Position numbers and translations under genes: made by a program. The notes below the pieces were generated by a model. It ran no database searches and was not told the DNA's origin. It was given only the letters and a program-made list of their open reading frames with translations. From NCBI GenBank assembly GCA_028287225.1, contig JAQBPZ010000382.1, positions 1 through 33,529 of the forward strand: 33,529 nt of DNA. The letters are read 5' to 3'. Positions 3,523 to 33,505 of the stretch are shown in pieces (within the stretch, counting starts at the first letter, position 1; each line of letters starts with the position of its first letter). Origin of the DNA: Gemmatimonadota bacterium. GTDB lineage: Bacteria; Gemmatimonadota; Gemmatimonadetes; Gemmatimonadales; Gemmatimonadaceae.

Positions 3523-3751
3523 GGTCACTCAGTCGAAAGGGGGACAAACGATCGAACGGAGGGGGGGGAGCAGGACGGATACCTCTATCGGTCGGCCACG
3601 GCGCACCGATCCGGGCCCTGCAGCATCCAAACTCATGGGCGTTTTTGGGGGTGTGGCGCTGTACCCCTCCAGGAGGAGTCAGCCCGAGGACGTCATCCGT
3701 CCTGGTCCGTCCCCTCCGTTCGATCGCTTGTCCCCGTTCGACTGAGCGGCC
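3523..3751. repeat. Palindromic intergenic element E3 (PAL-B family; core opposite in orientation to E10/E12)
   Basis: ggtcactcagtcgaaagggggacaaacgatcgaacggagggg ... cccctccgttcgatcgcttgtccccgttcgactgagcggcc. Confidence 0.88.
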
Positions 3752-7288: not shown

Positions 7289-7482
7289 AACGAGTAACGA
7301 GTAACGAGTCAGCGCATCATCGGAGCATCCCGGGCGGATGTCATCCCATGAGCGAAGCGAATCGGGATCCATCATCCCCGCGGATTGGCCAGCCAATCCG
7401 CGGAGATGGTGGATCCCGATTCGCGCTTCGCGCTCATGGGATGACCGGGACGCCTCTCGGCTTACTCGTTACTCGTTACTCG
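7289..7482. repeat. Nested palindrome E4 between convergent genes; outer GAGTAAC heptamers, inner ~48-bp arms
   Basis: cgagtaacgagtaacgag ... ttactcgttactcgttactcg; inner atcccatgagcg...gcggattggc / gccaatccgcgg...cgctcatgggat (7343-7442). Confidence 0.88.
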
Positions 7483-10259: not shown

Positions 10260-10286
10260 CAGGTCAATCGCTCCAACGGCCAACTG

Positions 10287-10529
10287 CTTCAACGCAGAGG
10301 ACGCCCCGACACTTCGTGCGGGGTAAACTCCGGGAACGGCGAGGACGCAGAGGACTGCATTTCCCCTCCGCGTCCTCCGTGTCCTCCGTGTCCTCTGTGG
10401 TCAAATGCTCTTCAACAGCGTCTAACCACAGAGGGCACAGAGGGGGACGCCTGAGCGGCCTTCCTCTGCGTCCTCGCCGTTCCCGGAGTTTACCCCGCAC
10501 GAAGTGTCGGGGCGACCTCTGCGTTGAAG
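10287..10529. repeat. Palindromic intergenic element E5 (CAGAGG family; 68-bp near-perfect arms)
   Basis: 10287-10354 versus 10462-10529: reverse complements with one mismatch by eye; inner stem CCTCTGTGGT / ACCACAGAGG. Confidence 0.92.
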
Positions 10530-10569
10530 CCGTTGATCTTCTGGAGCGCCAACACTCGATCGCACGGGT

Positions 10570-11423: not shown

Positions 11424-11960
11424 ATGGCGAGCCGGATCAAGAGCGGGATCTTCATCATTGCCGAGATCACCGGCACCGAGGGCGAGCGAATCGTGGCCCT
11501 TCAGGCCGCGTACGATCCGCGCCTCCTGAAGCTGGGCCGCCCGCACGTGACGCTCGCCGGCTCCTCGGGGATGGGACCGATCGCGCCCGACACGACGGTG
11601 GCGGAGCTGGAGGAGCGCCTGCTGCCGATCGCGACGACGACCCCGCCGATCGTGCTGCGCTTCGGGCGCCCCACGCAGTTCATGCAGACGGAGATCGTGG
11701 TGCTCCCGCTCGATCCGCATGGACCGCTGCGCACGCTGCACGAGCGCATCAAGACGAGCGGTCTCCGCGCCGCCCCGCCGCGCTTCTTCTTCACCCCGCA
11801 CGTGACGCTCAGCCTCTACCGCGAGCAACCGCGCGACGTCCTCGCGAAGCTGCTCCGCGAGCGCTTCGACGAGCCGGTCACGATCGACCGGATCGAGTGC
11901 CACCTCACGAAGGACACCGGCGAATCGCGGCACCTCATCACGCTGCCTCTGTCGGGATAA
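11424..11960 (+). CDS. 2'-5' RNA ligase-like / 2H phosphoesterase family protein
   Basis: Two HxTx motifs (RPHVTLAG and TPHVTLSLY) in a ~178-aa protein. Confidence 0.85.
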   Translation: MASRIKSGIFIIAEITGTEGERIVALQAAYDPRLLKLGRPHVTLAGSSGMGPIAPDTTVAELEERLLPIATTTPPIVLRFGRPTQFMQTEIVVLPLDPHGPLRTLHERIKTSGLRAAPPRFFFTPHVTLSLYREQPRDVLAKLLRERFDEPVTIDRIECHLTKDTGESRHLITLPLSG

Positions 11961-11968
11961 CGTCAGCT

Positions 11969-12183
11969 GCCTCAACGCAGAGGGCGCCGAGGGGAACGGC
12001 GAGGACGCAGAGGACTGCCTTCGTACATTTGTTCTCCTGTCCTCTGTGTCCTCCGTGTCCTCTGTGGGAAAACGCTGTCGAAGAGCATTCAACCACAGAG
12101 GACACGGAGGGCACAGAAGGGAATGCCTGAGCGGCCTTCCTCTGCGCCCTCGCCGTTTCTCTCTGCGCCCTCTGCGTTGAAGC
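11969..12183. repeat. Palindromic intergenic element E6 (CAGAGG family)
   Basis: gcctcaacgcagagggcgccgaggggaacggcgaggacgcagagga ... tcctctgcgccctcgccg...ctctgcgttgaagc. Confidence 0.85.
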
Positions 12184-12218
12184 AGTGCGCAGCCTGCGGT
12201 CAGCCTCCTGAGCTCATC

Positions 12219-17362: not shown

Positions 17363-17503
17363 GTACGCGACTTTCGCCGAATGGGTGGCGAATCCTCGCG
17401 ATTTCCTCCTCGGGGAGCACGTGGAGGCAAGGTGAATCAGGGGTGAGCGGCTGCCCGGATGTGATCATGAAAATTCGCCACCCATTCGGTGAAAGTCGCG
17501 TAC
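17363..17503. repeat. Inverted-repeat element E9 (GTACGCGA family), 31-bp arms
   Basis: gtacgcgactttcgccgaatgggtggcgaat (17363-17393) and attcgccacccattcggtgaaagtcgcgtac (17473-17503); one mismatch. Confidence 0.9.
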
Positions 17504-18396: not shown

Positions 18397-18424
18397 CGGC
18401 TCCCTGTCTGGTCGCTCCCCGTCT

Positions 18425-18660
18425 GGTCCCTCAGTCGAAGGGGAGAAACGATTGAACGGAGGGGACTGACCAGAACGGATACGGCACAGTGCCATCCCTC
18501 GGGCTGACTCCGCACGCAGGGTACAGCGCCATACCCTCAAAACTCCCATGAGTTGTGGATGCTGCAGGGCCTGGATCGGTGCGCCGTGGCCGACCGAGGG
18601 AAGTATCCGTCCTGGTCAGTCCCCTCCGCTCGATCGTGTGCTCCCTTCGACCGAGTGACC
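18425..18660. repeat. Palindromic intergenic element E10 (PAL-B family)
   Basis: ggtccctcagtcgaaggggagaaacgattgaacggagggg ... cccctccgctcgatcgtgtgctcccttcgaccgagtgacc. Confidence 0.88.
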
Positions 18661-18774
18661 AGCAGGCGGCAATGGTGCCTGCCCGCTCGCCGGTCGGCTC
18701 AGTGAATGGGACTAATTGTCTCATGAACACCAGAAAAGCCCGATCTTCTCTCAGGAGCGTGCCGTGCGTCGAGA

Positions 18775-22714: not shown

Positions 22715-23268
22715 GGCCACTCAGCCTCGAGCACTCCCGCGCTCGCCATCTCCTGTTCAACTGCGTCGTCCTCTCCTGTTCAACAGCTTCAACACAGAGG
22801 ACGCGGAGGAACTGCAACAGCCGCGGAGGGACGCGGAGGTCGGGCGGGCTACTGATGGAATGGAAAGGTCCAGCCGGACCTGGAGAGCGTATCGTTTCTG
22901 GGGGGTGCGCCACGTGAAGCTGTGCTTGGCGCACTCCCAAAACACCCCCGCTCTGCACTTCACATGAACTTGTTTGGCCAGGACGGAGCTCGTCGCCGCC
23001 TCTGCGTCCCTCCGCGGCTGTTGCAGTTCCTCTGCGTCCTCTGTGTTGAAGCTGTTGCCAAGTACGAGATTGAAGCTCTTGCCAAGCACGAGGTTCAGGC
23101 CTTCTCGCGTCGGGAACGAGCCGTGCGTTCGAATGGATGGGGCGGACCAGAACGGATGCAGCACCTGGTTGTCCTTCACGCTGCTCAGACCGTGGCCGGC
23201 TGAGGGAAGCATCCGTCCAGATCCGTCTCCTCCGTTCGATCGTTTGTCCCCCTTCGACTGAGTGGCCA
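22715..23268. repeat. Composite nested palindromic element E11 (PAL-B ends with CAGAGG-family palindrome inside)
   Basis: Outer ggctggccactcag / ctgagtggccagcc; inner 59-bp arms 22781-22839 / 22999-23057 with two mismatches. Confidence 0.85.
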
Positions 23269-24194: not shown

Positions 24195-24326
24195 GGTTTC
24201 TCCGGTGGTGACATGCGGAGCTGAACGCTCCCTCGTTCGTCGCGAGTGCGCAAGGCGCGTCGTCTCGTCCCAGTTCCCAGTCATCCTGAGAAACTTTTAA
24301 GGATGCGCTCATGGCCGTGCGGGGCT

Positions 24327-24552
24327 GGCCGCTCAGTCGAAGGGGGCAAACGATTCGACGGAGGGAATGGACCGGGACGGATGACACCTTCCGGCTGACT
24401 CCTCACGAAGGGGTACAGCGGCACATCCCCAAAAACTCTCGTGAGTTTGGATGCTGCCGGGCCTGGACCGGCGCGCCGTGGCCGGCTGAGGGAAGGATCC
24501 GTCCTGCTCCGTCCCCTCCGTCGAATCGTTTGCCCCCTTCGGCTGAGGGACC
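24327..24552. repeat. Palindromic intergenic element E12 (PAL-B family)
   Basis: ggccgctcagtcgaagggggcaaacgattcgacggaggg ... cccctccgtcgaatcgtttgcccccttcggctgagggacc. Confidence 0.88.
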
Positions 24553-24636
24553 AGCCGAGCGCCATCGAGGCGAAGAGCCCGGGCACGAAGCGTGAACTGA
24601 CGTACCGGGAGCGACCGACATCAACCGGAGGGCTCC

Positions 24637-30047: not shown

Positions 30048-31568
30048 ATGCGCATCCAGGCTACCGCCCTCTGCCTCCTCGCCGCCCTCCCCGCCGCCGC
30101 CCAGACGGCGCGCCGAGGGGAGATCCCGCCCGCATTCGCCGCCGTGCGCGAGGCCGACCTTCGGCGCGACGTCGGGGAGATGGCGTCGCCCGGCATGCGC
30201 GGGCGCGAGGGCGGCACGAAAGACGAGCTGCGGGCATCCATGTGGCTTGCCGAGCGGTATCGCCGCATCGGGCTCGTGCCGATGGGCGAGGACGGCAGCT
30301 GGTTCCAGTGGTTCGACATGACGCGCACGCGCGTCTCCACCACCGCGAGCCACGCACGCATCGGGGGGCAGACGCTGACCCTGTTCGGCGACTTCATCCC
30401 GACGGGCGTCGTGCCCGCAGAGGCCAGCGGCGCCGTGCTGTGGGTGCAGGATGCGCGCGACACCACCGCCGACGTGCGCGGTCGGATCGTCGCGACACCG
30501 CTGCTCGCGCCCGCGCCGGCGACCATCCGCGCGAACAGCTACACCTACGCCACCCGGTACGCCGACGCCGCGATCGGCGGAACGCTCGCCCGCTTCGCGC
30601 GCCGCGGGGCGGCGGCGGTGATCCTCGTCGCGGACGCTCCCGTCGACAGCGCGTTCGCGGTCGTGTCCGACGCGCGCGTGCGCGGCGCCTACGACGTGGA
30701 CCGCGCCATCCCGCGAGCGGCGAACGGCTCCGACCGCGTGGCACCGCCGCCCGCGCTCGGCACCGGCCCAACGCCCGGCTTCCTCGTGCACGCCTCGATG
30801 CGCGAGGTGCTCGCCCAGCAGCCGCAGGCCGAGCTGTCGATCCGGCTCGAGCGGTTCACCGCGCCGTCGGTGAACGTGATCGGCATGGTGCGCGGCACCG
30901 ATCCGAAGCTGCGCGACGAATACGTGATCTACAGCTCGCACCAGGACGCCAACGGCGTGCGCGCCACCATGGAGGGTGACTCGGTGCACGCCGGTGCCGA
31001 CGACAACGCCTCCGTGAGCGCGGCCGGCCTCGCCGCGGCGCGGGCGTTCGTGCGCCAGCCGGGCAAGCGGTCCGTCCTGTTCATCAACCACGGCTCCGAG
31101 GAGCGCGGCCTGCTCGGCTCGCGCTACCATGCGGCGCATCCCGTCGTGCCGCTCGCGAAGGTCGTCGCGGTCCTCAACGGCGACATGATCGGCCGCAACA
31201 ACCCCGACTCGGCCGCGCTCCTCGGCACGCAGCCCCCGCATCGCAACTCGACCGACCTCGTGACGATGGCGCTGCGCGCGAACGCGCTGACAGGGAAGTT
31301 CATCCTCGACACGCTGTGGGATCGTCCGACGCATCCCGAGGGATGGTACTTCCGCAGCGACCACGTGCCGTACGCGCGCCAGAACGTGCCGGCGCTGATG
31401 TACACGACGAACCTGCATGAGGACTATCACACTCCGCGCGACAATCCGGAGAGCATCGACTACCCGAAGCTCACGCGTATGGCGCAGTGGATGTATCTCA
31501 CCGGGTGGTTCGTTGCCAACGCGGCCGAGCGGCCAAGGGTTGATCCCGGGTTCAAGCTGGAGCGTTAG
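30048..31568 (+). CDS. M28 family peptidase, exported
   Basis: Signal-like MRIQATALCLLAALPAAAQ; SSHQDANG, GADDNASVSAAG, EERGLLGSRYH, NLHEDYHTPRD. Confidence 0.9.
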   Translation: MRIQATALCLLAALPAAAQTARRGEIPPAFAAVREADLRRDVGEMASPGMRGREGGTKDELRASMWLAERYRRIGLVPMGEDGSWFQWFDMTRTRVSTTASHARIGGQTLTLFGDFIPTGVVPAEASGAVLWVQDARDTTADVRGRIVATPLLAPAPATIRANSYTYATRYADAAIGGTLARFARRGAAAVILVADAPVDSAFAVVSDARVRGAYDVDRAIPRAANGSDRVAPPPALGTGPTPGFLVHASMREVLAQQPQAELSIRLERFTAPSVNVIGMVRGTDPKLRDEYVIYSSHQDANGVRATMEGDSVHAGADDNASVSAAGLAAARAFVRQPGKRSVLFINHGSEERGLLGSRYHAAHPVVPLAKVVAVLNGDMIGRNNPDSAALLGTQPPHRNSTDLVTMALRANALTGKFILDTLWDRPTHPEGWYFRSDHVPYARQNVPALMYTTNLHEDYHTPRDNPESIDYPKLTRMAQWMYLTGWFVANAAERPRVDPGFKLER

Positions 31569-31585
31569 CTACGCGAGCTTGGAGA

Positions 31586-31902
31586 GTACGCGAATCGTGC
31601 GAACCTTCGGAGCGAAGTGTCGCGCTCCTCTGAAAGTGCCTTAACGCAGAGGTCACAGAGGGAATACCGAGGGCGCAGAGGACTGCACTCGGGCGGCTCT
31701 GGTGCACTGATCCAACCTCCACATCCCCAGAACACCTTGATGCATTTTGGGGGTGCGAGAGCATGGCTCGGTGCGCAGAAGCCGACTGACGCAGTCCTCT
31801 GCGTTCCTCGCTGTTTCGCTCCGCGTCCTCTGTGTTGATGCAGTTCGCAGTTCCAAGAGGATCGCGAGAATTCGCTCCGAAGGTTCGCAGACATTCGCGT
31901 AC
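31586..31902. repeat. Composite palindromic element E15 (copy A, flanks tesB)
   Basis: ~45-bp termini gtacgcgaatcgtgcgaaccttcggagcgaa... / ...ttcgctccgaaggttcgcagacattcgcgtac; inner CAGAGG arms; cattttgggggtgcg core. Confidence 0.92.
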
Positions 31903-31926
31903 CCTCCAAGCACGCGGAGCGAACAG

Positions 31927-32781
31927 CTATTTCGAGCCGACCCGGATAAGCCCTTCCTGTGCCACCGAGGCCACCAGCTCGCCCGACTGCGAGTGGATCG
32001 TCCCGCGCACGAAGCCGCGGGCACCGGCCGCGACGGGGCTGTCGGTGGAGTAGAGCAGCCACTCGTCGGCGCGGAAGGGCCGGTGCATCCAGAGCGAGTG
32101 ATCGAGCGACGCGAGGCGCAGACCCGGCGCGCGGTAGGCGATGCCGTGCGGCTGCAACGCCGTCACGAGCAGCCCGTAATCCGACGCATACGCCAGCACC
32201 GCCTGGTGGATCGCCGGGTCGTCCGGCAGGCGCCCATCCGCCCGGAACCACGCTCGGCGCACCGCCTCACGCGTCTCCGTCCCGTACGGGTGGATCGGCC
32301 GGACGTCGATCGGGCGGTCCTGGGTGACGACGCTGCGCAGGGGCTCGGGAATGCTGCTCGCGCGCTCGCGCAGCACCGTCAGCTCCGGGACGGTGCTCTC
32401 CGGGTCCGGAACCTCCCCCATCTCGATCTGGTGCTCGGGCCCGGGCTCCGTCACGTGGAAGGAGACGGAGAGGTTGAAGATCGCCTGCCCGTGCTGGATG
32501 GCCGTGACGCGCCGCGTCGTGAAGCTCCGTCCGTCGCGCAGGCGATCGACGAAGTAGACGATCGGCGCGGCCAGGTCGCCGGGGAGGATGAAGTAGCCGT
32601 GGGCGGAGTGGGCCTCGCGACCATCGGCGACGGTGCGACGGGCCGCGACGAGGGCCTGGGCGAACACCTGGCCGCCGTAGACCTGGCCGGTGCCGAGGTC
32701 GCGATTCTGGCCGCGGTAGATGTTGACCTCGAGGGGCTCGAGGTCGAGGAGGGCGACGAGTTCTGCGAGTGGCTTGGACAT
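31927..32781 (-). CDS. acyl-CoA thioesterase II (TesB-like)
   Basis: MSKPLAELVALLDLEPLEVNIYRGQN...VYGGQVFAQAL; ASLDHSLWMHRPFRADEWLLY; RGTIHSQSGELVASVAQEGLIR. Confidence 0.93.
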   Translation of the reverse strand: MSKPLAELVALLDLEPLEVNIYRGQNRDLGTGQVYGGQVFAQALVAARRTVADGREAHSAHGYFILPGDLAAPIVYFVDRLRDGRSFTTRRVTAIQHGQAIFNLSVSFHVTEPGPEHQIEMGEVPDPESTVPELTVLRERASSIPEPLRSVVTQDRPIDVRPIHPYGTETREAVRRAWFRADGRLPDDPAIHQAVLAYASDYGLLVTALQPHGIAYRAPGLRLASLDHSLWMHRPFRADEWLLYSTDSPVAAGARGFVRGTIHSQSGELVASVAQEGLIRVGSK

Positions 32782-32831
32782 GCGAGCAATGTCGCCGGTC
32801 GCTTGTGGCGTTGCCAGCTGGGGCTCTGGTC

Positions 32832-33139
32832 GTACGCGAATCTTGCGAGCCTGCGGAGCGAATTGACGCGATGCCTTGGCAAGAGCATCAACACAGAGGA
32901 CGCAGAGGGAAACAGCGAGGAACGCAGAGGACTGCGTCAGTCGGCTTATGCGCACCGATCCATGCTCTCGCACCCCCAAAATGCATCGAAGTGTTTTTGG
33001 GCCGCGGGGTCGGATCGGTGCACCGGAGCGCGCCCGATGCAGTCCTCTGCGCCCTCGGTATTCCCTCTGTGACCTCTGCGTTAAGGCACTTTCAGAGGAT
33101 CGCGACACTTCGCTCCGAAGGTTCGCACGATTCGCGTAC
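32832..33139. repeat. Composite palindromic element E16 (copy B, inverted relative to E15)
   Basis: Reverse complement aligns end-to-end with E15 by eye; ORF track gives AVLCALGIPSVTSALRHFQR(S/I)ATLRSEGSHDSRT from both. Confidence 0.92.
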
Positions 33140-33163: not shown

Positions 33164-33505
33164 CTAATGCGGCGTGATGCTCCGCGGCGCCATCAGCTCG
33201 CCCGCGGCCCGGCGCGCGGGGAGCGACTCGCTCAACAGCCCGACCATGAACCGCTGCGCCTCCGAGATCCGCTCCACCTCGATGGCGATCGCGTCGACCG
33301 CTGCCTCGAGCCGCTCCTGGCGCTCCTCGTCGTGCGGGGCGCCGATCGCCGTCTTCCTCGGTGAGCCGAGGCGCCAGAGGACCCGGGCGCCGAGCCCGAT
33401 GGCGACGAGCGAGGCGATGCTGACGACGATGATCGTCATCACCTGGGCGAACTGCTGGACGTCTGATTCCATGGAAGGGCTCCGGGGGGTACTGTTTTCC
33501 TGCAC
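33164..33505 (-). CDS. small membrane-anchored hypothetical protein
   Basis: Single hydrophobic helix (VMTIIVVSIASLVAIGLGARVLW) then charged, helix-prone region; start may be 33472. Confidence 0.65.
   Translation of the reverse strand: MQENSTPRSPSMESDVQQFAQVMTIIVVSIASLVAIGLGARVLWRLGSPRKTAIGAPHDEERQERLEAAVDAIAIEVERISEAQRFMVGLLSESLPARRAAGELMAPRSITPH

Follow-up and report, generated by a model that had tools for sequence, protein, structure and literature searches.

Concentrically layered, MITE-like palindromic elements around a tesB-like gene in a Gemmatimonadaceae-type genome

In the 33.5-kb window considered here (the whole stretch of DNA analyzed, 33,529 nucleotides), a tesB-like acyl-CoA thioesterase gene lies between two palindromic elements, E15 and E16. 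Both belong to a family of small elements that has received little description, and a gene for a putative nuclease, GxxExxY, is found in some of its members. The two are best read as MITE-like, with an unusual concentric layering, and as gene-free relatives of the GxxExxY elements. On the account that is considered probable as a whole, E15 and E16 would be copies of a small element that lacks a gene and consists of concentric layers, part of a heavy intergenic load of such elements in a Gemmatimonadaceae-type genome. Their position beside tesB would be incidental, sequence would have been converted between the inverted copies, new elements would insert at palindrome centers, and relatives bearing GxxExxY would belong to the same system.

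The inverted pair and its patchy identity

E15 (31586-31902, plus strand) is a composite near-palindrome from a four-copy family, located between the convergent genes for an M28 peptidase (30048-31568, plus strand, upstream of E15) and the thioesterase (31927-32781, minus strand). E16 (32832-33139, minus strand) is a second, inverted copy, found between the start codon side of tesB and the next minus-strand gene; a 102-aa ORF lies beyond it (33167-33472, minus strand). The tesB ORF is intact, and its 284-aa product matches Pfam Acyl_CoA_thio (E = 3e-41) and NCBIfam tesB (E = 2e-85, just under that model's cut-off). It is separated from E15 by 24 bp and from E16 by 50 bp, as the initial annotation had estimated (about 25 and 50 bp). 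That annotation had also described E15 and the reverse complement of E16 as composite palindromes, alignable over their whole length and nearly identical over the first 100 bp or so, and this description stands. The two align end to end, with 283 of 318 columns identical (89%, 11 gap columns) and a single mismatch within the first 102 nt. Comparison of either element with its reverse complement also yields an alignment (242/336 for E15, 238/316 for E16), which shows both to be imperfect palindromes. An independent repeat search recovered the inverted pairs 31586-31717/33008-33139 (92%) and 31725-31841/32885-33001 (93%). The opposite orientation noted for the two elements does hold but is weak, as a near-palindrome looks much the same in either direction, and direct alignment still gives 240/325. 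In a search of the whole draft genome (3.75 Mb, 415 contigs), E15 and E16 matched each other with E = 9e-112. Only two further full-length copies were found (C156 and C389, at 75%), together with tens of partial ones, and many of the partial matches carry CAGAGG units.

Both elements are predicted to fold into one long stem of about -232 kcal/mol. It could thus be proposed that the palindromes are kept for a function, their RNA forming highly stable intergenic hairpins at which transcription stops or RNase III is attracted, and the location of E15 between convergent genes would suit such a role. However, E16 lies between two same-strand genes, just ahead of the tesB start, and neither element shows a U-tract at its ends. 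Moreover, a full-length E15-like element was detected in 0 of 59 relatives at E <= 1e-10, so the layered element is specific to this lineage, and a hairpin function is considered improbable. No Rfam match was obtained in the window, and a known RNA family was accordingly rejected for the palindromes.

Identity between E15 and E16 is uneven along their length, at 98, 94, 74, 96, 81 and 75% in six successive bins, so that near-identical patches sit on an otherwise 75% background. Other pairs of copies share 58-81% identity without such patches, and in 20,000 shuffles of the differences, no stretch with a single difference was as long as the observed one of 102 nt. This pattern looks like past gene conversion or template switching between inverted copies, the simplest account, rather than a unit that moved whole. 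After their arrival, the inverted elements would have exchanged sequence by recombination or template switching, leaving the patches. It had been suggested, as an inference, that recombination between E15 and E16 would invert the gene; the patchy identity supports recombination, and an inversion of tesB by the same route is possible, but an inversion switch is not supported. Such a switch, in which recombination flips tesB and changes its expression, could draw on the inverted copies and their 102-nt stretch. However, no transposase or recombinase was found nearby among the window proteins scanned with Pfam, in line with the earlier remark that no recombinase is visible, no promoter-type asymmetry was shown, and the tesB genes of relatives have no such repeats. 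The short upstream region of tesB also lies inside the inverted segment, and a flip therefore need not alter expression. This possibility is regarded as very unlikely.

Concentric layers and exchanged interiors

The outer layer of E15 has its left arm at 31586-31630 (GTACGCGAAT...TTCGGAGCGAA) and its partner arm at about 31858-31902. It encloses a CAGAGG layer (31644-31834) that is concentric with it, the two centers lying at 154 and 158.5 within E15; in E15, E16 and C389, outer and inner centers are within 0 to 5 nt of each other. Three or more kinds of interior are found inside outer arms with GTACGCGAA and TTCGGAGCGAA: CAGAGG arms with a TTTTGGGGGTGCG-like core (E15, E16, C156 and C389), a GACGACGGGCCGG hairpin (C316 and C187), and a double CAGAGG (C276 and C343). 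The CAGAGG layer is itself the outermost one in many other elements. The genome contains 14 occurrences of the outer motif of E15, TTCGGAGCGAA, versus 2 of its reversed control, and one of the 14 is in an arm of the GxxExxY locus on C235.

The DNA just outside E15 is also self-complementary (CGCGAGCTTGGAGA/CCTCCAAGCACGCG, within 31564-31924; score 14 versus a null maximum of 12 in 3000), which places E15 at the tip of a hairpin that lies between convergent genes. Flanks complementary beyond 3000 random pairs were observed for two of the five outer-layer copies (E15 and C316); those of E16 are marginal and those of C156 and C389 show none, so that these three are not clearly different from random. 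It is likely that new elements insert at the centers of palindromes, and insertion at or near the center of existing ones would account for the layering. Palindromes are known as landing sites for other elements, since the insertion sequences IS1397, ISKpn1 and IS621 target REP palindromes (PMC1525189), but here the newcomer would itself be a palindrome, placed concentrically.

Density of palindromes and the position of tesB

A palindrome finder returned 12 palindromes in the window, about one per 2.8 kb. Nested palindromes of the CAGAGG type are present at 1149-1395, 10269-10548 and 11959-12200, and another at 22781-23069 has CAGAGG outer units and a different interior. A second type, with ATCCGTCC/GAACGGAGGGG arms, has four copies (3540-3735, 18423-18662, 23126-23254 and 24323-24556). 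Two more strong palindromes (7291-7482, between convergent genes, and 17363-17503) show little similarity to the other types. The catalog of palindromes covers the window and 20 further stretches, picked for holding CAGAGG matches. Local hopping as a rule was considered, since 9 of 41 elements have their nearest relative on their own contig versus 4.5 expected (p = 0.036), and was not relied on, as the sample of the second type comes from the window only. At L179 (2886-2947) and L180 (2155-2466), ORFs extend into the repeats and gain peptides such as TTEDTEGTE or HRGHRGH; run-on of this kind is a likely source of misannotated protein ends.

The contigs C186 and C187 (loci L229 and L198) both start with an identical, perfect 66-nt hairpin. 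The assembly is therefore interrupted by palindromes, and the count of them is too low. This observation, and the 415 contigs of the draft, could also suggest that inverted near-identical repeats were wrongly joined in a short-read metagenome bin. Against this, the near-identical stretch of E15 and E16 is only about 102 nt long, and the mutually complementary outer flanks of E15 would not be created by a wrong join. An assembly artefact is thus judged highly improbable.

Palindromes also flank single genes unrelated to tesB at a similar distance, namely a Cof-type HAD hydrolase gene (C400) and a 326-aa ORF (C343). With palindromes so dense, the flanking of single genes is common and needs no special cause. 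The flanking of tesB by E15 and E16 is thus probably incidental, the two elements being found on both sides because such elements are dense and not because tesB is a cargo.

The main alternative is that E15, tesB and E16 form a composite unit, in which two non-autonomous elements mobilize the gene between them as in TIME-COMPs, composite units with Tn3-derived miniature elements at their borders (PMC4133298, PMC13367494). The resemblance lies in two miniature elements flanking a gene, but no Tn3-type parent and no sign of the unit having moved were found here. E15 and E16 are by far mutually closest (normalized score 0.73 versus 0.38 for the next), which would be expected of a unit, but elements on different contigs reach a similarity of 0.71, and parts of E15 and E16 are no more alike than the background of unrelated copies. 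Two GxxExxY loci in the genomes of relatives (L159 and L168) have inverted composite palindromes around one gene, as tesB does, and in one of these genomes, G004, the two flanking palindromes are each other's best match; pair-plus-gene units may therefore exist. The distribution of tesB is patchy (three of nine other genomes of the genus, with varying neighbors). However, its identity tracks taxonomy, with 77-85% within the genus and 71-72% in the family, which argues against recent transfer. The nearest named records by tesB are from Gemmatimonadaceae and other Gemmatimonadota bins. In the relatives examined, tesB occurs without palindromic elements, and its neighbors vary rather than being fixed. 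The 102-aa ORF has homologs in the family, in relatives not adjacent to tesB, and the M28 gene, tesB and this ORF were never neighbors in the relatives examined, which thus offered no site for an empty-site proof. Neither a second copy of the unit nor an empty counterpart of an occupied site was found in the genome and the relatives examined, and no relative has tesB beside the same neighbors. Altogether, the density of elements suffices for chance flanking, and a composite unit is considered unlikely. The mobilization of a one-gene cassette, as initially put forward, is not borne out, given this density, the other flanked genes, and a tesB that follows taxonomy and is bare in relatives.

Gene-bearing relatives and known systems

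GxxExxY genes (TIGR04256; Pfam PDDEXK_3) are present in this genome, and arms of the kinds seen in the palindromes surround two of them. On C349, the gene lies between CAGAGG arms that match the inner layer of gene-free palindromes, including that at 1149-1395, far above shuffles. On C235, it lies between arms that recur without a gene at 2213-2456 of the window (score 37 versus a shuffled maximum of 23) and on C282. The outer arm of E15 shares only a short similarity with the C235 arm (score 18 versus a shuffled maximum of 15), and the kinship of this layer is therefore weak. For the putative active site of GxxExxY, D...ELK can be read directly in the C349 copy, and the C235 copy reads ELR. 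GxxExxY was detected in 42 of the 59 genomes of the family. Of 31 GxxExxY loci, 18 have inverted-repeat flanks that exceed the 99th percentile obtained for mismatched pairs and 13 lack flanks above this cut-off, compared with 1 of 20 tesB control loci that exceeds it. At C40:967-1283 (L027/L028), the gene is in two pieces and possibly decayed. Searches with GxxExxY returned no match to a defense system and, by sequence, no relative of solved structure; the literature searched hardly mentions it, one paper naming it in passing. The encoded proteins, a family that Pfam names as PD-(D/E)XK nuclease, would be the best candidate for the enzyme moving the elements. More speculatively, although with some plausibility, GxxExxY proteins, a widespread family, may supply the nuclease for a class of mobile palindromic elements. 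Insertion at the center of existing palindromes would then build "Russian-doll" repeats, forms without a gene, E15 and E16 among them, would be moved in trans, and a pair might sometimes enclose and carry a host gene such as tesB.

Compared with known systems, E15, E16 and their like resemble MITEs in being short, gene-free, multi-copy and intergenic, with inverted termini and with gene-bearing relatives that share their arms. Their ends (GTACGCGAAT.../...ATTCGCGTAC) are terminal inverted repeats in E15 and E16 and recur with small changes in C156 and C389, and four full-length copies and tens of partial ones exist without a transposase gene. A candidate gene-bearing parent with the same ends, of putative mobility, is found for other layers at C235 and C349 and, as a weak match, for the outer layer of E15. 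Unlike MITEs, no target-site duplication is seen, inspection of the flanks of E15, E16, C156, C389 and C316 having revealed no direct repeats, the palindromes are nested concentrically, and the gene in the relatives is GxxExxY and not a known transposase. Abundant intergenic palindromes are also a feature of REP/REPIN systems with RAYT, but the elements described here are about ten times longer than a REP. The Y1/RAYT transposase domain PF01797 had no match in the draft genome (92% complete; controls matched in 5 of 14), and a RAYT-driven REPIN was thus rejected.

Genes for four-helix-bundle proteins (23S_rRNA_IVP, PF05635) were found in 47 of 59 genomes, and inverted repeats, mostly tandem heptamer arrays, flank 21 of 28 of their loci beyond the 99th percentile of controls. 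These loci (L199-L219, L221, L223, L029 and L030) lie outside rRNA, and the heptamer varies from one to another. Intervening sequences of 23S rRNA carry an S23/four-helix-bundle ORF (PMC4990558), a small ORF inside a long stem in a pre-existing helix, and chromosomal genes related to this ORF are, in the family, likewise flanked by inverted repeats. The elements considered here differ in being located outside rRNA, and no such ORF is present in E15 or E16.

The arrangement around tesB is probably incidental, and the weight lies on the system behind it, that is, nested palindromes about every 3 kb together with forms bearing GxxExxY. The same inverted-flank design surrounds the four-helix-bundle genes, whose products form another unexplained family and are familiar chiefly from the intervening sequences of 23S rRNA. 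GxxExxY and four-helix-bundle proteins are both frequent in this bacterial family and have no known role, and a link with small mobile palindromes provides a testable hypothesis about what that role may be.
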